Source: Candidatus Brocadia sp.
GTDB taxonomy: Bacteria > Planctomycetota > Brocadiia > Brocadiales > Brocadiaceae
NCBI GenBank assembly: GCA_021646415.1
Contig: SOEU01000005.1
Coordinates: 62,001-126,000 of the forward strand
Length of the DNA stretch: 64,000 nucleotides
Direction of reading: 5' to 3'
Below the pieces are notes generated by a model. That model ran no database searches, was not told where the DNA came from, and saw only the letters and a list, made by a program, of their open reading frames with translations. Shown piece after piece: positions 39,830-50,385 of this stretch; position 1 is the first letter of the stretch; each line of letters begins with the position of its first letter. A program made the translations under genes and the position numbers.

Positions 39830-42800
39830 TCAGAGCTCCGGCACAGTCACCTTTACCGGGCCAAGCGAGGAGTGGGCCATGTCGGGGCCGAAGTAAAAGA
39901 GCATCAGTTCTCCGGGCCCTGGAGGCATGTAGTCGAGAAGGACTGAGAAGCCACCGTTGTTATCGGTTTTTGCGGTGCCTTCGTAGGCCTTGCGGTCAGA
40001 GGCAACGAGTGCAGCATCGACCGGCTGATTGGCTCTGAAATCACCTTCGAGCCTGCCGAAGACTCGAAATTTCCTCTGTGGTTCGCGGATGAGTTCCTGA
40101 AAAACGAGCCGCGATTTAACCCCAGGCGCAACGCCAATCGAAATGCCACCGAACGGGAGGACGGAATCCTCGGTCCGTTGCATGGCGTGGAGGTTGAACC
40201 GGTAATCGCACCGTCGCTCACGGGGGCCAGGCCGTATTTTGTTCTCATCGAGCGTGAGCCGGCCGCGCAGCGTGATCTCCTCGTCCGGCGCGAGGACGAC
40301 ATAGCCACGTTCGAGCTCGAGCTTCATCCCGTCAGCGAGGCCGGCTGGGATGAGGTCCACGACGATGGGGCGGTCGAAGTCGTTGTTGACCTTGAACTGG
40401 AATTCGACCGGCTCGTATGGGCTGTTGCCGGGGGCTGGAGAAAAGGTGGTCACATTTTCCTGGGCTGAGTTGTTGTTGAGATCAAGCTCACCGTACTGCG
40501 AGCTGTGGCTGAAAATCTCAGCGCGCAGACAGGTGTGGCCGCGTCCTTTCGGTGGCCACTCGAACTTGAAATCGCGGAACTGGCCGCCGGGAATGTCCTG
40601 CGGCGCGGAGTCCGGAAGCGCGACGAATGTGCCTTTGTCGCCGACGCCCATCGGTTCGTTGACTGACGCACGCACGATCACGCCGGTGGCGTCGAGATTG
40701 CCGCGATTGTGGACGCGGACTTTGATGAGGTTCACGACCGAACCTTCCGGGTGCCAGTGGACTTCATCGCCGGTGCCAAGGGGCGGGTCGGAGTTCGGAT
40801 AATCTTCTGCGCCGTTGCCGGGCCAATCGATCCAGATGTCATGCGTGGCGTATTCCGTCGGCGAGTGCCATGGGCGGATTTCGAGATCGAGGAACTTGCC
40901 AGGCCAGCGATCGATCTCAACGGCGAGGGCTTCTGGTTTTCCGGCCATCGGGTTCGGGAGCGATTGAACGACGCGGACGCGGATGCCGTCGTAAGCTGGA
41001 TAGGTCGTGTTCAAATCAAGCGCGTCGCCGACGTGCATGGCACGTGACTGAAGTGTGGCCGGGGCGACTGCGACACCACCGCCGTGAGGATTGAGCGCGG
41101 TGACGGATGAGCGGTACAGCACTTCACTGAAGGGATCGGCGGTATCGGTTACGAGGATGCCGCCTGCCTGGCCGCTCGCGTCAGGCGGCGAAAGGCCGAG
41201 GGCGTCATCGGGAAGATTCTGAGACGCAACCGGCGCGGGCTGCCGATTTTCCACATGAATCCAATGATGATCGCTGAGCTTGATGCGCAGGAGCTGGCGG
41301 GCCGGATTTCCCGGCGTACCCATGCCGGGATACTCGGTGGTCTTCCATTCGAGCGGCAGCAGTTCGTAGCGGTGCGTCTCGGGCATGCCGTTGACCGGCG
41401 GCGGCACTTCGGCAATCGCGGCGGGCGGAATCCAGCGGATTTTCCGCTTGTGCCAGGCATCGACGTGGCTGGCGGGCGGGTGGTCGTCCATGAGGCTCCA
41501 GGCGTTGAGATAATCATGCGTTACGTCGAACTTCTGGTTGTAAGTCTTCTTGTGGTAAAGATCGACAAAGCCAAGGACGTGGCCGAGCTCATGCGCCCAG
41601 GTCTGCCACGTTCTGTGGCCGGAGCCGACCATTGCGCCGGCTTGTTTCTGCGCGGTGAAAACGTATCCGCCCGCGCCCGGAATACGGACGTTGAAGTAGT
41701 TCGACGGTCTGGCGCCGGCGCGTCGGCTGTCAATGCCTGTCCCCTGTTCGACGAAGAGGATGAGATAGGACTCGAAGTTACCCATCTCGTTGTGAAACAG
41801 GGCATTGAGATCGTCCTCGTGCGCTAAGTCGATGGGGATGCCAAGTTCAGCCGCACGCGCAGCGAGGAGATTCGAGAGCGCCTCGGAGACGATATTCGCC
41901 ATATCCCCGCGGACGGTGATCGTGCCATCCTCACGGATCACACCGTCCACACGGACGGGGCCATCGAGGCCGATCGGCGTAAGGCCGATGCCGCCGAGCA
42001 CACGGATCATGGCATAATCGTTCGAAAACTCTACGCGCAGCCTGAGACCGAGTTTGTCGGGACCTGCATCGAAAGATTCGACCCAGTTGAACTCGGCATT
42101 AAGCGCAGGCAGCAGCAGCGCCGCGAGCGTGCCGGGATTTGCTATTGTGCCGGCAGGCAGCGGAATCTGAAACTGGCGAACTTTGGCGTCTTCGTCTTTT
42201 GGGTCACCTTTGCCGCGCACCTCAATGTCCACGCGCGCATTTGCTGCAAGCGTTGCCGGGAACACGACCGGCCTCCCAGTAAGCCATGCGGGGACCGGCC
42301 CTGAGCCTGGCGTTTCGCGAGGCCCGTCGAGGCCAAGCGCGCCGAGGCTCGCACCATCCTTTACCCGAATGAAGGAACCTTCGCCGGTTTCGAGCTTCTT
42401 GAGTTCCAGGTGTACCTCTCCGCCCAAGACCGAGCAGGTAATCCAGTTGGATGGAACGTCTTTCACTGCGTTGACGCTGTTTTGAAAGGCGATCATCAGA
42501 GCCGCGGCATTCGGAAACGTGCCCGTCGGCGCGATGAGGATGTCTCTGTTGCGGTTCTTCGCGTCGCGGACGTGGAGCGTGGCGTTTGCGCTGCCATCAA
42601 GCGTGAGCGGAAAGGAGCCGGCGAGGCCTCGGGTCGTGAGCGAAGCGGCGACGAAGGTACGATTGAAATAATCGTTGTAAATACCGTTCATCGGCACGAT
42701 GCGGTCGGGCATCGTCCACTGGATGCTGACGTTTTGATACGAGGTCTCGCGCCAGTACTGGTGCGTCTTCGACTGGTAGTCGGAGAGCTTGGCGTTGCGG

Positions 42801-43135
42801 TAATTCGTGAGATCGGCGGGCGAGCCGGTAAAGCGATGATCGCGCGTATCGACGATCATCGCAAAGACGCGTAACAGCGGGTCATCTCCGGCATCATAAA
42901 CTTCCGACTCGGGCGCAAGGACCCGTCGCGACTCTTCCCGACATGGCGCCACATACCACGGATCGAAAATATTCTGATTCTTCGTCGAGCCATGGAATGT
43001 GACGGCATCAGTGCCGAGTGTCGGAAGAACTTTTACCGAAGGTGGCGGAGGAGGCTCGCACCCCGCGAGCGCAACCACCAGCAAAACCATCACAACCGCA
43101 CTGTACCGCCAAGCCTGCGTAAGGTGAACTTTCAC
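39830..43135 (-). CDS. Large M6-like metalloprotease lipoprotein
   Basis: The start is placed at the GTG at 43135, nine bases after GGAGG, which gives 1101 residues; an upstream ATG at 43225 lacks a site. A lipoprotein signal (YSAVVMVLLVVALAGCE, Cys near residue 26) precedes a proline-rich segment. The zinc motif HELGHVLGFVD begins at His515 and a downstream WSLMDDHPP could be the Met-turn, as in M6/immune-inhibitor-A-like peptidases. The C-terminal ~400 residues look like Ig-like or jelly-roll modules. GC content and codon choice (GCG, CGC, GGC, CTC) are far higher than in the genes outside the island, so it was probably acquired. Confidence 0.75.
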   Translation of the reverse strand: MKVHLTQAWRYSAVVMVLLVVALAGCEPPPPPSVKVLPTLGTDAVTFHGSTKNQNIFDPWYVAPCREESRRVLAPESEVYDAGDDPLLRVFAMIVDTRDHRFTGSPADLTNYRNAKLSDYQSKTHQYWRETSYQNVSIQWTMPDRIVPMNGIYNDYFNRTFVAASLTTRGLAGSFPLTLDGSANATLHVRDAKNRNRDILIAPTGTFPNAAALMIAFQNSVNAVKDVPSNWITCSVLGGEVHLELKKLETGEGSFIRVKDGASLGALGLDGPRETPGSGPVPAWLTGRPVVFPATLAANARVDIEVRGKGDPKDEDAKVRQFQIPLPAGTIANPGTLAALLLPALNAEFNWVESFDAGPDKLGLRLRVEFSNDYAMIRVLGGIGLTPIGLDGPVRVDGVIREDGTITVRGDMANIVSEALSNLLAARAAELGIPIDLAHEDDLNALFHNEMGNFESYLILFVEQGTGIDSRRAGARPSNYFNVRIPGAGGYVFTAQKQAGAMVGSGHRTWQTWAHELGHVLGFVDLYHKKTYNQKFDVTHDYLNAWSLMDDHPPASHVDAWHKRKIRWIPPAAIAEVPPPVNGMPETHRYELLPLEWKTTEYPGMGTPGNPARQLLRIKLSDHHWIHVENRQPAPVASQNLPDDALGLSPPDASGQAGGILVTDTADPFSEVLYRSSVTALNPHGGGVAVAPATLQSRAMHVGDALDLNTTYPAYDGIRVRVVQSLPNPMAGKPEALAVEIDRWPGKFLDLEIRPWHSPTEYATHDIWIDWPGNGAEDYPNSDPPLGTGDEVHWHPEGSVVNLIKVRVHNRGNLDATGVIVRASVNEPMGVGDKGTFVALPDSAPQDIPGGQFRDFKFEWPPKGRGHTCLRAEIFSHSSQYGELDLNNNSAQENVTTFSPAPGNSPYEPVEFQFKVNNDFDRPIVVDLIPAGLADGMKLELERGYVVLAPDEEITLRGRLTLDENKIRPGPRERRCDYRFNLHAMQRTEDSVLPFGGISIGVAPGVKSRLVFQELIREPQRKFRVFGRLEGDFRANQPVDAALVASDRKAYEGTAKTDNNGGFSVLLDYMPPGPGELMLFYFGPDMAHSSLGPVKVTVPEL

Positions 43136-43293
43136 AAAATGGTCCTCCATGCAACCAAAGGTTGTAAGTAAAATGATGAAAAAACGCACGCGAAAACGAA
43201 TGCCTTGATTTTCAATGGCCTCCACAGATTGTCCGAGAATTCAGTGACAATCTCAAACACATACAGTATATTGACTAATATTAATATGATTGG

Positions 43294-43449
43294 TCAATAT
43301 ATAGTACTACATCTGGTGCTCAAAGCAATTCTCGGACAGTCTGCCAAGGTCAGACCCCAAGATCTCTCACCCAAGTCATTGGGAATGCCAGCTAACCGGT
43401 AGCGCCCGCTGGTCTTGTATAGTGATGCTTCTGCAATAAATCCAGGCAG
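43294..43449 (-). pseudogene. Leader-peptide paralogue 7 with CTG at the start position
   Basis: GGGAGGAAAAAAC is followed by CTGCCTGGATTTATTGCAGAAGC, that is the usual leader with CTG where the siblings have ATG (LPGFIAEASLYKTSGRYR). It reads on to about 51 codons with two Cys. No ATG, GTG or TTG lies nearby; the next in-frame ATG is at 43515, inside peptide 6. It is either non-functional, started from CTG, or read through from upstream. Confidence 0.6.
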
Positions 43450-43463
43450 GTTTTTTCCTCCCT

Positions 43464-43820
43464 TTAATCTCCTAACGGCCGGTTCAACAAGGCGAAAGCA
43501 CACCCTCTGTCGCAATCGGATGCCGCATTAAGGCATTTCTGACAGGTCGCTCCGAACGGTTCAATTCTGCATGGTGCTTCACATGCACGGTAGATCAAAT
43601 TACAATAGAGAGAGCACCACAAGAAGTCAACCTCACCTCTTGAGATCCTTGAGTTACCCTTAAAGGGTAACCTGGTGTTTGCGACAGTTGGCCGTTTGCC
43701 CTGTGAAATAAGTGACCGGTCAGACACGGGCTGACCAAAGCTGGTGGTCAAATGATAGGTTTGACTTGACCTTTAAAGAGACAATTCAGCAGTGAATCCA
43801 GGCATATTCATGGTGTTCAT
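43464..43820 (-). pseudogene. Leader-peptide paralogue 6 with internal TAA
   Basis: The ATG at 43820 opens MNTMNMPGFTAELSL, then a TAA at 43773-43775 falls where siblings have the tyrosine of SLY. In the same frame the sequence continues RSSQTYHLTTSFGQPV... for 103 codons. Eight Cys follow, in pairs such as CSLYC, CEAPC, CQKC and CDRGC. The frame is otherwise intact, so a single TAC or TAT to TAA change explains it. Confidence 0.75.
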
Positions 43821-44024
43821 TTCACATCTCCCTTCGATTAGTGACGAAATTCATGAGTCAACCCTGTCAGGGTTAATTATTTTTTCTAAAAACGTCAAAA
43901 TTATCTTTGGTATATGCTAACAGCCAAGTAGCCGGAATGCAGCGCAGTGTAACCTGTATACAATTTACCGAGAAAAGTGCGCCTGGCCTCTTAGGAATTC
44001 GTTCCTTAGTCCTTCTGCATGGGC

Positions 44025-44318
44025 TCAAAACGCAAGCCAGGGATTACGCACAGCCTCAGGGGTACACCTCTCGAACCAACATACCGATGTCAACTCAAGT
44101 TGTTTTGTTATCGGGTTCCACTCCCAGACCTTTTCACAACAAGATCTTAATCCTATACCTCTTATGCTACCCAAAGCGCCAACTGTCCCGCAGTTGCCAC
44201 ATTGTTCCAACATGGGCAAAACATCACCGGTACCTGATCTGCCGAAAACAGCCTTCCCGCCATATATGCCCTTGGTTGGGCCAAGCGATGATTCTGCATT
44301 AAATCCAGGTATGTTCAT
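44025..44318 (-). CDS. Leader-type precursor peptide paralogue 5
   Basis: GGGAGGATGAA precedes the ATG at 44318. The 97-residue product starts MNIPGFNAESSLGP, with the conserved PGFxAE leader. The tail has six Cys (QCGNCG, SCC, VCW, RCT), is Trp/Gly-rich and shares no sequence with the other tails. The upstream spacer TATGACCGTTGAAC copies the 3' end of the PatG-like gene. Confidence 0.75.
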   Translation of the reverse strand: MNIPGFNAESSLGPTKGIYGGKAVFGRSGTGDVLPMLEQCGNCGTVGALGSIRGIGLRSCCEKVWEWNPITKQLELTSVCWFERCTPEAVRNPWLAF

Positions 44319-44429
44319 TTCATCCTCCCTAATCACATTTTCAAGTTCAACGGTCATAGTAAGTACCCCAGATGCAGAGAAGAGTCATCCGAGGAGATAT
44401 TTCCAGGATTCCACTCCATGCCATGCGGG

Positions 44430-44777
44430 CTACATTCTCACATAGTAAAAGACATCTACTGGATCGTACCAGACGACAATTGGGGGGCGAATCGCGGCCG
44501 CTTTCGCTTTGCAGAAGTCATAGGGCTCCGATCCCTTCGCGAACACCTCCTTGTCTTTGCACACACTAGCACATTGACCGGTGACGTCCTCCCCCTTTGC
44601 ACCGCATCCCTTGCAAGTACATTTGTGGTTCGGGAAATCCTGCCCCGGCGCTGCCAAGTAGATCGCGCTAATCATTTGTGTGGAGGAATTGATTGCATGT
44701 TTATCGGTGTGGTAATGCCCGCTCGTCTTGTAGAGCGAGGCCTGTGCGGTAAATCCAGGCATATTCATGGTATTCAT
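44430..44777 (-). CDS. Leader-type precursor peptide paralogue 4
   Basis: AAGGAGATGTGAA precedes the ATG at 44777. The 115-residue product starts MNTMNMPGFTAQASLYKTSG, carrying the leader shared by the group. The tail contains KCTCKGCGAKGED and QCASVCKD plus one further Cys, six Cys in all, and ends in a Tyr/Val-rich stretch. The frame is open further upstream, but the leader and site fix this start. Confidence 0.78.
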   Translation of the reverse strand: MNTMNMPGFTAQASLYKTSGHYHTDKHAINSSTQMISAIYLAAPGQDFPNHKCTCKGCGAKGEDVTGQCASVCKDKEVFAKGSEPYDFCKAKAAAIRPPIVVWYDPVDVFYYVRM

Positions 44778-44814
44778 TTCACATCTCCTTTCTTGGTTAG
44801 CCCGTACGCTCAGA

Positions 44815-45087
44815 TCATAGCCGGGCAGTAAATGAAGATTCATAACATGTGCTCTGGCAGTCATTCATGCACCGGTCAAAAAACCCACCAAACGTCATGC
44901 AGACGTGCAAACATGCCCCGTAACAGTCTTGACCGGGAAATCCTATAGGTCCGTACGGGCCAGTCGCTCGACACATTTGCGGGTATACAGTGGTGCTTAA
45001 CTGTATGGCTTGGAGAGTTCCAGCCATACCGTAAGGCTTGCTTCCTTTGTAGAGCGAAGTCTCAGCGGTAAATCCTGGCATATTCAT
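44815..45087 (-). CDS. Leader-type precursor peptide paralogue 3
   Basis: TAGGAGGTGTGAA precedes the ATG at 45087. The 90-residue product starts MNMPGFTAETSLYKGSKPYG. Its tail has one isolated Cys and then CYGACLHVC and CMNDCQSTC, a CX3CX3C pair of triplets that could form a cysteine-stapled helical hairpin. The upstream spacer again copies the CATAACCGTTGAAC cassette end. Confidence 0.78.
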   Translation of the reverse strand: MNMPGFTAETSLYKGSKPYGMAGTLQAIQLSTTVYPQMCRATGPYGPIGFPGQDCYGACLHVCMTFGGFFDRCMNDCQSTCYESSFTARL

Positions 45088-45210
45088 TTCACACCTCCTA
45101 TTGTTTTTAAAGTTCAACGGTTATGGCAAATCGCCCGAATGCAGCGAAGCATAATCCGGGGACACCTTTCACGAGCTCCACCTCGTTCCATCCGAGCTAC
45201 ACTCGCTGCC

Positions 45211-45546
45211 TCAGGCAATGTCCCGACTACATGCTTGCAGGCATGCCCGGTAATTCTCATCGCAAATCAGGCAGTTCCTGGATGGCTTCGGATTCTCCCA
45301 CGTTCCTTCACAGGTGTCCAAACATGTGGAGTAGGTAGCTTCACAACTACTCTTGCAAACCCAGTAGTCTCCAAGACCGCCAAATACTCCACCACCGCGC
45401 GGCCTGGAAAACATACTACCCGCAAGCTGAGAGACAATCTCTTGACTCCAGGTGGTATAGACACGGTTAGCAACAGATTGGTAATGCCCCCTTGTCTTAC
45501 CGTGCGATACTTCTGCGGTAAATCCTGGAATATTCATGGTGTTCAT
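45211..45546 (-). CDS. Leader-type precursor peptide paralogue 2
   Basis: TTAGGAGGTTTGAA precedes the ATG at 45546. The 111-residue product starts MNTMNIPGFTAEVSHGKTRG. A Gly-rich middle (RPRGGGVFGGLGD) leads to eight Cys in CX3C-type pairs (CKSSC, CLDTC, CLIC, CLQAC). This twin-pair pattern resembles helical-hairpin Cys proteins. Confidence 0.78.
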   Translation of the reverse strand: MNTMNIPGFTAEVSHGKTRGHYQSVANRVYTTWSQEIVSQLAGSMFSRPRGGGVFGGLGDYWVCKSSCEATYSTCLDTCEGTWENPKPSRNCLICDENYRACLQACSRDIA

Positions 45547-45601
45547 TTCAAACCTCCTAATCGTTTTCGGTCTAACAGTTACGGCAATTTGCCTGTTGAG
45601 G

Positions 45602-45856
45602 TCATGCGTCAGAAGTTACTTGATAACAAATACCGTCGTAGAAACAAAGGGTATCTACGCGCACGTAACCAGGAACGGTTATCGATGATTTACAGAAACG
45701 ATGACGATCATCACAAAAGTAATAAGACTTGAAGGCGGAGGGAACTACTTCTCCTCCTTGCTTAAAACCAGTATACACTGCACCTACTTGGTGGTGTGCA
45801 CTACTCCGATACAACGAAGCTTCTGCTGAAAAGCCTGGAATATTCATGATGTTCAT
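45602..45856 (-). CDS. Leader-type precursor peptide paralogue 1
   Basis: AAGGGAGATGCGAA precedes the ATG at 45856, 27 bases after the PatG-like stop. The 84-residue product starts MNIMNIPGFSAEASLYRSSA. Its tail has four Cys (FCDDRHRFC, LCFYDGICY) and is aromatic-rich. It is the first of seven tandem members. Confidence 0.78.
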   Translation of the reverse strand: MNIMNIPGFSAEASLYRSSAHHQVGAVYTGFKQGGEVVPSAFKSYYFCDDRHRFCKSSITVPGYVRVDTLCFYDGICYQVTSDA

Positions 45857-45883
45857 TTCGCATCTCCCTTCACATAATCAGGT

Positions 45884-46806
45884 TCAACGGTCATAGTACG
45901 GCGACAACTTGGTCACCAGGAACGGAAACTCCTCGGTCACATCCACCCTCACAAAAAACTTCTCCGTGAATTCGGTGTTGCGATTCGTGTAAGAGAAGAT
46001 GACCTCGACGATCTTGCGGGTACTGCTGAGCGGCGATGGACGTACCTCTAACCCGGTCAGCGAAAAATCCCGTGCAAACTCTTCGGCCGCCTTGACATAG
46101 ATGGCGGGGTAACGCATGGCCATGTAGTTCAATGCCCGGTGATCGTCCGTCGCCCCGGCATTATCCGTCATCTGCAGGATCCTGTCAAAGACCTCCTCGG
46201 CTGCCGGTCTAAACGTCTCCGGTTTGGCCTTCTCAGGACATGGAATAGCTTTCATGAGCACATCACGACCGAAGGAATAAATCTGGTCGAACGCAACGAT
46301 GGGCACCATGAGCCCATTACACATCTCCGGTGGGGCAATAGGTCCCCGCACTCCGATGATGACACAATGTCCATAGGACTCAGCTGAGGTTGGATGGCTT
46401 CCACCAGCCGGTCAAAATCCCCTGGATCTCTCGGTTGAAGCAGGTAGGTTTCCAGCCCCTGAATAGTGAACACCCAGCACATCTGGCGCGCGAGGTAGCG
46501 GTTCTCGCGCTTAGACAGCGCGTTATGGAATGCCTGCTGGTCGGTTTGTTCTTTGGTCTCCGCGCGCCCTATAGCCTGGGCAAATTCCTTTTCCACCGAA
46601 AGGCGCGGGAAGCGCGCCTCGATCCTGCCAATTGCATACACGTAAGAGACGGACACTGAGGCAGCTCCAGAATCACAGGTCGGACAGGGACTCTGTTTGA
46701 CAGGTGGGGTTGTGACGATCTCTTCCTGGGATGGTGTGATCACGGCCACACCCTGTCCCGTCGTCGTTTGGCTTACCGGTTGTTCTTTTATTTCATTCTG
46801 TTCCAT
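45884..46806 (-). pseudogene. PatG C-terminal-domain-like protein, broken by a one-base frameshift
   Basis: The ATG at 46806 follows CGGAGGAGAACC. The first frame runs EARFPRLSVEKEFAQAIGR...YLARQMCWVFTIQGLETYLL...QPQLSPMDI and then goes out of frame. A second frame continues VIIGVRGPIAPPEMCNGLM...IVAFDQIYSF...RALNYMAMRYPAIY...YTNRNTEFTEKFFVRVD...TKLSPYYDR and ends at 45884. One missing base just after MDI (about 46364-46370) joins both into a ~307-residue protein like the domain found at the C-terminus of cyanobactin PatG proteases. An SPCPTCDSG segment lies near residue 40. It is either a pseudogene, a sequencing error or a shift site. Confidence 0.8.
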
Positions 46807-46844
46807 GGTTCTCCTCCGTTTGAAATGGTTTCCTGTACTTTGTT

Positions 46845-47063
46845 TCACCTCGTGCCCCGGCCAGTAAAAACGAGCCAGTGGTTCAGCGCGGCGGCACGAC
46901 GTTCGCATCCACCGCAGGGTCTGATTCCGAAAGCCGAGGTAACTCGTTTGATGACGTCGCCAAGGCCAATCTCCTCGTCGGCAATAAATCCCGGTAGGCG
47001 CACCCGATAGGGCTGATGTTCACCCCGCTCAACTTGATCACCTTTTTCCTCTTTTTCACTCAT
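46845..47063 (-). CDS. 72-residue peptide with PGFIADEE motif and CGGC
   Basis: GAGGAGATGAAGGT precedes the ATG at 47063, five bases after the protease stop. The charged N-terminus (MSEKEEKGDQVERGEHQPYR) is followed by VRLPGFIADEEIGLGDVIKR, which shares the PGFxA(E/D) core with the peptide leaders. The tail has IRPCGGCERRAAALNHW. It may be a processing partner, a carrier or an eighth substrate of the system. Confidence 0.8.
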   Translation of the reverse strand: MSEKEEKGDQVERGEHQPYRVRLPGFIADEEIGLGDVIKRVTSAFGIRPCGGCERRAAALNHWLVFTGRGTR

Positions 47064-47067
47064 ACCT

Positions 47068-47979
47068 TCATCTCCTCGTATTCGCTGTCATCAGGAATTG
47101 ATAAGACCCCCACGCGTTCAACAACGGCGGCACCACCGTCGTTCGCCTGGGTGCATACGCTTGTGTGACGGCAAATTTCACTTGCGCCGCAGTCGCCGCG
47201 GGAAACGCTGACCACAACAACGCAATGGCGCCGGTCACAAAAGGGGCGGCGGCACTGGTGCCACCGAGTGTCAAGGGCTGACCCGTCGATCCGAGACTGG
47301 TAACGTTCTCACCGGGCGCGCCCAGTCCCCGCCGTCCAATTGAATTTCCCAGGTTCGAGTGATTCATAGGCTTGCGTTGAAGATCATACGCCACCACCGG
47401 TATGACCCAGGGGTGGCGGGTAATAGCGGTGCTGCCAAGGGTTCCCTGATTGCCCGCCGCTACAACCACGAGCACCTCGCGCTTAGCGGCATAATCCAAA
47501 GCTTCTTCTAATGCGCGCTCGCTTTTGAGGGAGGGTTGGGCGAGAGACGCGCTAACGTTCAGTACTTGAGCACCCGCGTTAATACTGCCGAGAATGGCCT
47601 GGGCAAGTTCCTCTGGGGTTGCGCTCGGCATCTCACCGTTGGTCATTTCCGTTTCGGTAAAGATAGGATGCACCAGGAGAGTACAGCCAGGGCAAATCGC
47701 TGGAGCCACCGATCCCCGCCTTGCGGTTAGAATCCCAGCTACAAAGGTACCATGCAGACAGGCGCTGCTGCTGGTTTGGGTACAGGTGCTGCTCATTCTT
47801 CGTGAGACTTCGCTGATATTTCCGCGGGCTAGATCAGGATGGTCCAGAGCGATGGGTCCATCGATGAGCCCAATTTTCAACTCCCCGCGACCACTTGTGC
47901 GTTCCATCAAAGAGGGAAGTTTAACCAATTCCAAAGGGGTCATAGAGGTTCGTTCTTGGCCCATATAACACCCTGACAT
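47068..47979 (-). CDS. PatA-like subtilisin-family (S8) protease
   Basis: The 303-residue protein has the full S8 triad: Asp40 (GLIDGP), His76 (CLHGTFVAG) and Ser242 (GGTSAAAPF), with the oxyanion Asn177 (AAGNQG). No signal peptide or prodomain is visible, so it probably acts in the cytoplasm, as PatA does in cyanobactin assembly, where it removes the leader. Cys pairs (SSTCTQTSSSACLH; CPGC) are present. Starts at 47979, 47964 or 47943 are all possible. It opens the operon, 57 bases after the riboswitch terminator. Confidence 0.87.
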   Translation of the reverse strand: MSGCYMGQERTSMTPLELVKLPSLMERTSGRGELKIGLIDGPIALDHPDLARGNISEVSRRMSSTCTQTSSSACLHGTFVAGILTARRGSVAPAICPGCTLLVHPIFTETEMTNGEMPSATPEELAQAILGSINAGAQVLNVSASLAQPSLKSERALEEALDYAAKREVLVVVAAGNQGTLGSTAITRHPWVIPVVAYDLQRKPMNHSNLGNSIGRRGLGAPGENVTSLGSTGQPLTLGGTSAAAPFVTGAIALLWSAFPAATAAQVKFAVTQAYAPRRTTVVPPLLNAWGSYQFLMTANTRR

Positions 47980-48036
47980 AAAATACTTAATGTTAATACG
48001 TGATTTTTAGGCCACAATCTTTTTGACTCATAAAAA

Positions 48037-48207
48037 TAAAAAAGCCTTACTGCAAAAATGTTCTCTTAAAACATCTTCGGCAGTAAGGCTGTCTTTATAT
48101 TGCTTTATTGCTACGATAAATTCGTCTTTTGAAACCTACATCCGTGTATGTCTAGAAAAGACCCTTTACTTTGCGCCCCCTGATTACTCAGGGTTTGCCT
48201 TTATCGT
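48037..48207 (-). promoter_or_regulatory. c-di-GMP-I/GEMM-class riboswitch with intrinsic terminator (copy 4)
   Basis: Minus strand: GATAAAGGCAAACC, hairpin CCTGA-GTAA-TCAGG with a GNRA loop, and GGGGGCGCAAAGTAAAGGGTC. The second box is GGCGCAAAG rather than GACGCAAAG, a possibly important change. The P3-like region is longer and different in sequence from the other copies. The terminator (AGCCTTACTGCCGAAGATG / TTTTGCAGTAAGGC) ends in a T-rich run at 48043-48037. The first gene downstream is the PatA-like protease. Confidence 0.82.
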
Positions 48208-48245
48208 GATTTTTTTATTACTCTCCTTTTATAAGGAATGGCTGT

Positions 48246-48275
48246 TGTATACCAAATATCTCTTTTGGATGTCAA
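48246..48275 (-). promoter_or_regulatory. Promoter of riboswitch copy 4 and the peptide operon
   Basis: TTGACA (48275-48270) and TATACA (48251-48246), with an 18-base spacer, lie about 40 bases upstream of the aptamer. Copies 2 and 3 have the same 18-base spacing. Confidence 0.65.
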
Positions 48276-49014: not shown

Positions 49015-50385
49015 TTAACCAAGCACATTATATTTTCTTACCCTGAAATCGACTCCCAACTCCCGGGCTATCTTTTTACATTTTTCAACATCAACACCAG
49101 GTATTTCGACAATAGAAACCTGTACATTGGGTATCACCTGCTTTGCGTCCTTAATAAACTGAATGAGGGCAGGATATGCCTTTTCCCCAAAAACCGGTTT
49201 ACAGATCTCTTCATACTTTTCTGCCGTATCAGCATTCAAACTAATGCAAATGGTATCGATCAGGCCTTTTAACTCATTGATAATGGGCCTCCCGTTGATC
49301 AGGTCACCATGACCGTTTGTGTCTAATCGAATACGCTTTCCCTTCGATTTCAGGAATCGAGCAACGGCTATCAACACATCCAGTCGTTCCGTAGGTTCAC
49401 CATAACCACAAAAGACGGCCTCGTCATAACCACCCGGATCTCCAATGGCGTGTATTACCTCTTCTGCAGTCGGTTCTTTCTTTAATCCCAAGTGGTGTCC
49501 CTTAACAATAGGATAGGTCTCCCTCATGCAAAAGGTACACACATTTGAACACCGATTTGTGAGATTTATGTATAATGAATTTCGTATGGCGTAAGCAACC
49601 TTCCCTTCTTGCTCAGGCTCACCGATTCCAAATAATTTATACGCGTTAAAGGTGGTAATTCGTTTAATATCCTGTACAGACAATCCATAGACATCGGCTA
49701 GTACAGGAATAATGAAAGATAGATAGGATGGCTCGTTGCGCTCACCTCTTTTGGGTTGAGGCGACAAGAAAGGGCAATCTGTTTCCAAAAGGAGCCTTTC
49801 GACAGGAACTGAGTTGGCAACCTCTCTCAAATTGTTTGCATTTGAAAAGGTAATCGGCCCTGCGAAAGATATGTATAATCCCAACTCTATACATTTCTCT
49901 GCTAACTCCTTCGTTCCACTGAAACAATGCACAACCCCTTTTAACATACCATTTTTGTGCTCGTTTAATATTGTTAAGCAATCGTTACCGGCATCACGGC
50001 AATGGATGATCACCGGCAAATTGTGGGATTTCGCCAGGGTCAGGTGTTTACGAAAAATACGCTGCTGATCGTCATGGGGGCTGCGATTCCTGTAATAGTC
50101 AAGCCCTGTTTCCCCTATTGCTATCACCTTCGGCTCTTTAACCAGGGATTCCAGGGTTTGCCAATCCTGCTCGGAAACCTTTGAGGCATCATGGGGATGG
50201 ATCCCAATACTGGCATATATATTGTCAAATCGATTAGCTAACGCGATACTTTTCTTGCTCGAAGCAAGACTTGTGCCCACATTAATCATACAACCCACAT
50301 CGGCTTCCTTTGCGCGAGACAAAACAGATTCCAGGTCTGCTTTATACTCAGGAAAATCGAGATGGGCATGGGTATCGATAATCAT
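49015..50385 (-). CDS. TatD-family metal-dependent hydrolase fused to a radical SAM domain
   Basis: A 456-residue protein. Residues 1-255 are TatD: HAHLDFPE (HxH), IGETGLDYY, PVIIHCRDAG, VHCFSG and LLETDCPFLSP. Residues 270-456 are a radical SAM domain with the CX3CX2C motif in RCSNVCTFCMRE (about residue 283) and a downstream CGYGEPTERLD. TatD-associated radical SAM proteins are usually a separate gene; here they are one polypeptide. TatD is a DNase in other bacteria, and the role of the radical SAM part is unknown. It lies last in the ffh-rplS operon. Confidence 0.9.
   Translation of the reverse strand: MIIDTHAHLDFPEYKADLESVLSRAKEADVGCMINVGTSLASSKKSIALANRFDNIYASIGIHPHDASKVSEQDWQTLESLVKEPKVIAIGETGLDYYRNRSPHDDQQRIFRKHLTLAKSHNLPVIIHCRDAGNDCLTILNEHKNGMLKGVVHCFSGTKELAEKCIELGLYISFAGPITFSNANNLREVANSVPVERLLLETDCPFLSPQPKRGERNEPSYLSFIIPVLADVYGLSVQDIKRITTFNAYKLFGIGEPEQEGKVAYAIRNSLYINLTNRCSNVCTFCMRETYPIVKGHHLGLKKEPTAEEVIHAIGDPGGYDEAVFCGYGEPTERLDVLIAVARFLKSKGKRIRLDTNGHGDLINGRPIINELKGLIDTICISLNADTAEKYEEICKPVFGEKAYPALIQFIKDAKQVIPNVQVSIVEIPGVDVEKCKKIARELGVDFRVRKYNVLG

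Follow-up and report, generated by a model that had tools for sequence, protein, structure and literature searches.

Prochlorosin-type families combine one maturation set with many precursors that have a common leader and diverse cores, and disulfide-rich bacteriocins are made from small precursors with double-glycine leaders and C39 exporters. Cyanobactins such as patellamide and prenylagaramide, the products of systems typified by PatA, PatG, and PatE, have precursors with a conserved leader and hypervariable products, and their recognition sites include RSII, G(L/V)E(A/P)S, and RSIII, which is AYDG-like (PMC10885120). The C-terminal domain of unknown function (DUF) of PatA and PatG, consisting of PatG_D and PatG_C, is present in all characterized cyanobactin pathways; its structure has been solved and its function is not known (PMC4259220). 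Here we describe a related locus in a 64,000-nucleotide stretch of a Candidatus Brocadia sp. genome, referred to as the window (contig 5, bases 62001-126000; the genome is 3.81 Mb and 99.96% complete). A run of minus-strand genes encodes an S8 serine protease, a small CGGC protein, a PatG-like protein (PatG-DUF), and seven small peptides with a common PGFxAE leader (45856-43294) (Table 1). This PatA/PatG-DUF/leader system is real, conserved, and mobile, an observation far beyond chance, and it is probably a minimal, heterocyclase-free PatA-type system making disulfide-rich peptides.

A sequence-only reading of the window had proposed an intact S8 protease, a 72-residue CGGC peptide, a protein resembling the PatG C terminus, and seven small paralogs, at least five of them with good starts, and all of these were recovered. 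The protease is closest by sequence to the PatA protease domain (family profile E = 2.6e-45, against about 1e-27 to 1e-32 for subtilisins and 2e-22 for the PatG macrocyclase), and its top matches in the Protein Data Bank are the PatA and PagA entries 4h6w, 4h6v, 3zxx, and 3zxy. Its structural model (pLDDT 87) is best matched to PatA (3zxy, Z 34.9), with many subtilisins within 2 Z. A 43-row family alignment shows conservation of Asp40, His76, Ser242, and the oxyanion Asn177, and the catalytic residues together with four cysteines (66, 74, 96, and 99) are kept in 41 to 43 of the rows; only the last of these cysteines has a counterpart in the PagA alignment. The conserved start is probably the ATG at 47943. 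No second protease of the S8/PatA/PatG kind was found in the window genome at E ≤ 0.001. The PatG-like protein is encoded by one gene split over two frames (46806-45884, with the break near 46350), and a model of an intact relative gave the PatG DUF structure 4uvq as its sole significant structural match (E = 7.7e-13). The CGGC protein and five small proteins, when scanned against Pfam and NCBIfam, were assigned to no credible family. Leader peptide genes p1 to p5 are intact and have strong, near-identical ribosome-binding sites. A leader profile run over the whole 3.8-Mb genome matched the seven leader genes at E values of 1e-12 to 1e-15 and nothing else credible, which excludes chance.

When the PatG protein was searched against 85,000 species genomes, 41 loci were identified from ten phyla (NCBI names): Pseudomonadota, Acidobacteriota, Nitrospirota, Nitrososphaerota, Actinomycetota, Methanobacteriota, Myxococcota, Planctomycetota, Chloroflexota, and Cyanobacteriota. 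With two planctomycete loci added, the order S8-(CxxC)-PatG-DUF-leaders is repeated in 43 further loci, with 1 to 11 leader genes. Leader genes were found at 40 of the 43 PatG-bearing loci, and the contigs of the other three stop 31 to 169 nt past PatG. A profile built from eight leaders detected 100 leader open reading frames (ORFs), spread over 34 of 44 loci. Almost all are on the PatG strand and immediately downstream of that gene; the archaeal, Streptomyces, and one acidobacterial locus were missed by this profile, and leaders were present there on inspection. Among 199 planctomycete genomes, PatG_C is encoded in three. One of these, from another genus of the same family, has the identical order S8, CGGC protein, PatG (intact, 315 aa), and leader peptide. 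The S8 protein of Candidatus Brocadia sp. WS118 (locus L030) shares 83% identity with that of the window. In 28 of the 43 other loci, a CxxC gene occupies the position between S8 and PatG-DUF; the CxxC itself is kept across loci while its two middle residues vary, and the segment RLPGFIxDEE resembles the LPGF of the leaders.

The co-occurrence on which the sequence-only reading had staked its case was borne out in 125 genomes of the Nitrosomonadaceae, the family of Nitrosovibrio sp. Nv6. Of the two outcomes that would have refuted that reading, leaders on ordinary long proteins lacking an S8 or PatG-C partner nearby and a lack of co-occurrence across genomes, neither came about; the leader was seen together with an S8/PatG-DUF pair and hardly elsewhere. 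Leaders were detected in 17 genomes and PatG-DUF in 16, all within those 17 (Fisher p = 2.7e-19). A leader therefore accompanies PatG-DUF in 16/16 genomes, as against 1/109 genomes without PatG-DUF; conversely, 16 of the 17 leader-positive genomes have PatG-DUF, and 108 of the 109 PatG-negative genomes lack the leader. Nitrosospira genomes also encode solitary leader genes far from the operon, so that precursors may be served in trans; the neighbors of these solitary genes are unrelated genes, among them an ImuB-like one and one for DNA polymerase III alpha, and gave no clue to function. In 294 planctomycete genomes, significant leaders were confined to the three operon-bearing genomes and one genome of the same genus, which has a single relic adjoining a transposase-like gene. 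A weak leader match in another genome (G055) was dismissed as chance, as it overlaps an unrelated gene and contains a stop.

The leader consensus is PGFxAEASLYxTSxxYR, or, with T at the first x, PGFTAEASLYxTSxxYR, followed by a loose linker and then [VI]xP[QA]. In an alignment of 40 diverse rows chosen to hold this second motif, P, F, A, and the second P are invariant, and E, S, and Y are nearly so. The second motif falls at residue ~30 to 37 in 69 of 92 peptides, as against 17 expected from shuffled segments, and it precedes the cysteines. The earlier claim that the peptides differ completely after the leader was thus wrong, and it is also contradicted by the p5 tail, which has a 52%-identical relative in a Terriglobia (acidobacterium) genome (L045 520-816). 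The tails, with a median length of 57 residues and mostly 4 to 10 cysteines, form many families, some of which are common to several phyla. No match at E ≤ 1 was found between the window tails and those of Brocadia WS118, although the proteases of the two genomes are so similar. By eye, the CC...CC tail spacing at three loci (L029 11442-11855, L038 12173-12610, and L030 12326-13090) is granulin-like, with no Pfam match.

Cysteine parity marks the boundary between leader and tail. Of 680 cysteines, only 12 occur in the first 30 residues. In whole peptides, the cysteine count is even in 80 and odd in 12; when counting starts 30 to 33 residues past the P of PGF, it is even in 90 and odd in two, and the signal fades into noise when the cut is moved further on. 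In ten of the 12 odd peptides, the extra cysteine precedes the boundary, so that their count turns even. With the cut placed at [VI]xP[QA], or at residue 33 where the motif is absent, 101 of 103 tails have an even number of cysteines, whereas control ORFs of similar size are even in 63% of cases (probability 8e-18 against this background, and 2.6e-13 when 79 tail families are counted instead). Among peptides found later and not used in finding the effect, 21 of 22 are even. Since parity is even from the motif onward, removal of the leader at this point is most likely, with the tails as disulfide-bonded products. The parity is strong, if indirect, evidence for separation of leader and tail and for cysteine pairing inside the tail, and it lends weight to the earlier proposal of a modular family in which the tails are the products; the cleavage itself is predicted. 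A reading of the tails as four-cysteine metal sites was ruled out: 58 of the 101 even counts are 2 mod 4, and 43 are 0 mod 4.

The PatG tree is patchy across phyla, which alone is no proof of transfer. Relatives of PatG-DUF are encoded on Mesorhizobium, Sinorhizobium (conjugative), and Streptomyces plasmids, where they are annotated as a hypothetical protein beside an S8 peptidase; the plasmid leader genes are missing from the annotation tables examined, which are themselves incomplete. On the plasmid of Streptomyces sp. NBC_01568 (NZ_CP109351.1; L112 1899-9075), the full set is carried within a Tn3 element in the order recombinase, S8, a protein in the CGGC position, PatG-DUF, one ten-cysteine leader peptide, and Tn3 transposase, flanked by 38-bp inverted repeats that are 95% complementary. 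The presence of the four-gene set as transposon cargo argues for its self-sufficiency. No match was found in 50,697 phage records. Within the window, a 29-nt copy of the PatG 3′ end recurs at 44333, 45100, and 45870, and pieces of the PatG 3′ end (28 to 315 nt, 65 to 100% identical) lie between precursor genes, downstream of PatG, in 8 of 40 other loci (L024, L028, L036, L038, L045, L054, L055, and L061). New precursors seem to arise by copying of the PatG end together with a leader. An omptin-family outer-membrane protease gene lies just downstream of the leader array on a Sinorhizobium mexicanum plasmid (L111 8412-9563).

In some relatives, S8 and the DUF form a single polypeptide, as in a Chloroflexi locus whose leaders are of the same type (L062) and in a planctomycete locus (L006), where the following peptides start with MKLP or MRLP and have six-cysteine tails. 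A third fusion occurs in an acidobacterium (G492; L108 6769-11153), accompanied by peptides that begin MFLPVQAKPVSR and MHLPIQSKPVNR and contain 8 and 6 cysteines. Their N terminus conforms to LPxQxxPVxR, matching the cyanobactin leader segment NILPQQGQPVIR, which we take to be from PatE. The same segment was used in an earlier study (PMC5108345). YcaO was not found among the scanned neighbors of this locus. Protease, DUF, and the N-terminal LP motif of the precursor thus travel together both in cyanobactins and here, and we put forward the hypothesis that the DUF reads the N-terminal LP motif. Elsewhere in the acidobacterial locus, a 361-aa neighbor (L108 5599-6681) has a weak, below-cut-off match to the pore-former family ETX_MTX2 (0.0028). 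A distant relative of PatG-DUF (27% identity) with no obvious adjoining S8 gene is encoded on a plasmid of Photobacterium sp. GJ3 (L113 4494-5669).

The locus resembles cyanobactin pathways in its PatA-type S8 protease, for which PatA and PagA are the best sequence matches, in its C-terminal DUF (PF18047 and PF18065 both above cut-off), and in precursor genes that combine a conserved leader with hypervariable products. It is unlike them in that protease and DUF are usually separate genes, an extra CxxC protein is present, the tails are long with even cysteine numbers, and the distribution spans ten phyla as against cyanobacteria. With a single such protease in the genome, and no second S8 family recurring at other loci, a counterpart of the PatG macrocyclase was not found, and a short core between RSII and RSIII was not seen in the peptide sequences read. 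The YcaO heterocyclase, a feature of most but not all cyanobactins, had been noted as absent within 43-48 kb, and this absence extends to the whole genome (no PF02624 match). When 10-kb flanks were compared all against all, the core genes were the only families present in more than five lineages; an ABC ATPase, common anyway, occurs in the flanks of five. The same comparison gave no conserved PatB or PatC neighbor, no profile search having been aimed at these, and no recurrent LanB, LanC, or LanM family, for which the genome was not searched with profiles. No modification or export gene was noticed near the window operon, and in the neighborhoods of other loci none recurs. Like prochlorosin-type families, the system has one maturation set for many precursors, some far from the operon, but no LanM was seen, the leader is dissimilar, and the tails have no Pfam match. 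With disulfide-rich bacteriocins it has in common a small precursor, a leader, and a cysteine-rich product, but the leader ends in [VI]xP[QA] rather than GG/GA and no C39 transporter recurs. By its sequence features, the system is tied to cyanobactins by its PatA-type protease and its DUF, yet it is not a cyanobactin, as the macrocyclase and core recognition sites are absent; YcaO is lacking as well. S8, PatG-DUF, and PGFxAE leader genes occur together, the set by which we define a split PatA system, and the leader, second motif, and cysteine parity would fit a ribosomally synthesized and posttranslationally modified peptide.

We propose that many precursors share one leader of ~35 residues and that the standalone PatG-DUF and S8, which are one polypeptide in some relatives and for that reason may be one functional unit, act together, the DUF presenting the leader to S8. 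S8 would cut at or just after [VI]xP[QA], and the released tail would fold into a disulfide-bonded mini-protein that, if exported, would act outside the cell, most plausibly in competition with neighbors. The CxxC protein, through its LPGF, may dock in the same place and aid thiol chemistry or regulation. Our confidence in the DUF as leader adaptor falls a little short of an even call, and the accessory role for the CxxC protein is a tentative and rather doubtful suggestion. Whether the system amounts to a new class, that is, a four-gene transposable factory in bacteria and archaea with the DUF as leader-reading unit, disulfide mini-proteins as products, and arrays grown by copying of a PatG-3′-end and leader cassette, seems to us evenly poised. 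The DUF is kept as a free-standing gene in ten phyla with little else, implying a role separable from heterocyclization and macrocyclization, and three or four small genes would suffice to test its function. Neither leader nor tails are represented in Pfam or NCBIfam, and the precursor genes are unannotated in the plasmid tables examined, so the peptides probably form an overlooked family of natural, disulfide-rich products whose leader is interchangeable. Neither the leader nor the split system was found described in the searched literature, although most subscription journals lay outside its coverage and a prior description is possible. The system occurs in anammox bacteria, nitrifiers, methanotrophs, and archaea and so has a bearing on how members of communities that cycle nitrogen and methane compete.

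An enzyme encoded elsewhere could instead modify the tails, for example by radical SAM thioether or lanthionine formation, with S8 and PatG-DUF only removing the leader at the end. Radical SAM genes, accompanied by small peptide genes, do lie beside the operon in two lineages, a Brocadiaceae relative (L005 7145-8185; Radical_SAM 2.9e-11, SPASM) and Nitrosocosmicus archaea (L057 5065-6096, 8.9e-21; L058 2813-3844); these possibly represent a second peptide pathway or a tailoring enzyme. We nevertheless regard this explanation as unlikely: the 10 kb around the operon hold no modification gene that is shared across loci, the window genome lacks YcaO, the Tn3 element holds the four-gene set without a modification gene, and even cysteine counts are needed by disulfides but not by thioethers to other residues. 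Still less probable is a cyanobactin pathway in which S8 also macrocyclizes the tails. The PatA-like protease, the cyanobactin DUF, and the precursor arrays with a conserved leader would suit it, but the genome has one such protease, which is nearer to PatA than to the PatG macrocyclase by sequence, the peptides have no AYDG-like follower, YcaO is missing, and the tails are far longer than cyanobactin cores, making this a very improbable account.

A defense or toxin-antidote system, in which PatG-DUF silences the protease and the leader peptides are triggers or toxins freed on infection or plasmid loss, would sit well with carriage on a transposon and a conjugative plasmid, patchiness across phyla, and fast-changing tails, and anti-phage systems include S8 proteases. 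PADLOC, however, matched the S8 protein to nothing but subtilase and IetS-protease entries and gave no match to the DUF, the CxxC protein, or the peptide. Sensor or ATPase genes are not widely recurrent in the flanks, and large precursor arrays together with solitary precursors in trans better fit a product family; we consider such a system quite improbable. That the locus is mere noise, its short ORFs being spurious products of a degenerate repeat region, might be argued from the damage to p6, p7, and PatG-DUF, but the leader and reading frames are conserved over ten phyla with the even-cysteine rule, and this comparison refutes it, leaving a negligible chance.

Several points weigh against a PatA-type system making disulfide-rich peptides. 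Two of the 103 tails, window p3 among them, have an odd number of cysteines, and about a third of loci yielded no CxxC gene. The isolated PatG DUF bound neither PatE nor heterocyclized PatE by NMR (PMC4259220), which weakens the adaptor idea; the PatA DUF was outside that test. With PatG-DUF, p6, and p7 damaged, the window copy may be decaying or misassembled. There is no exporter in the locus and no signal peptide on the protease, although cut tails would have to reach an oxidizing place. Finally, sequence shows the operon and how well it is conserved, the co-occurrence, the layout of the leader, the even cysteine numbers, the intact catalytic residues, and the absence of YcaO, whereas cleavage by this protease and its exact site, the disulfides, the parts played by the DUF and the CxxC protein, export, and the biological role are inferred.

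Table 1. Features of the split PatA locus in the Candidatus Brocadia window (positions of the window)
Feature	Position	Strand	Details
PatA-like S8 serine protease	47068..47979	-	Pfam Peptidase_S8 1.3e-25; no signal peptide seen
CxxC (CGGC) protein, 72 aa	46845..47063	-	RVRLPGFIADEEIGLGDVIKR...RPCGGCERRAAALNHW; LPGF in common with leaders
PatG-DUF gene, 5′ part (PatG_D domain)	46252..46806	-	PF18047 1.8e-30
PatG-DUF gene, 3′ part (PatG_C domain)	45884..46351	-	PF18065 5.3e-37
Leader peptide gene p1	45602..45856	-	MNIMNIPGFSAEASLYRSS...VVPS, then 4-Cys tail
Leader peptide gene p2	45211..45546	-	8-Cys tail
Leader peptide gene p3	44815..45087	-	...TVYPQ, then 7-Cys tail (one of two odd cases)
Leader peptide gene p4	44430..44777	-	6-Cys tail
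Leader peptide gene p5	44025..44318	-	...DVLPM, then 6-Cys tail; related acidobacterial tail
Leader peptide gene p6	43464..43820	-	TAA at codon 16; 8 Cys past the stop
Leader peptide gene p7	43294..43449	-	LPGFIAEASLYKTS...; no ATG; CTG and ribosome-binding site in place
Direct repeats	43397..45898	not assigned	Span leader starts and ribosome-binding sites

Two further minus-strand genes of the window were noted. Directly downstream of the leader array, a gene at 39830-43225 encodes a 1131-aa protein with a lipoprotein-like signal and a HELGH metalloprotease motif; it has no Pfam match and is not recurrent at other loci. At 49015-50385, a TatD DNase and a radical SAM domain are fused in one protein.

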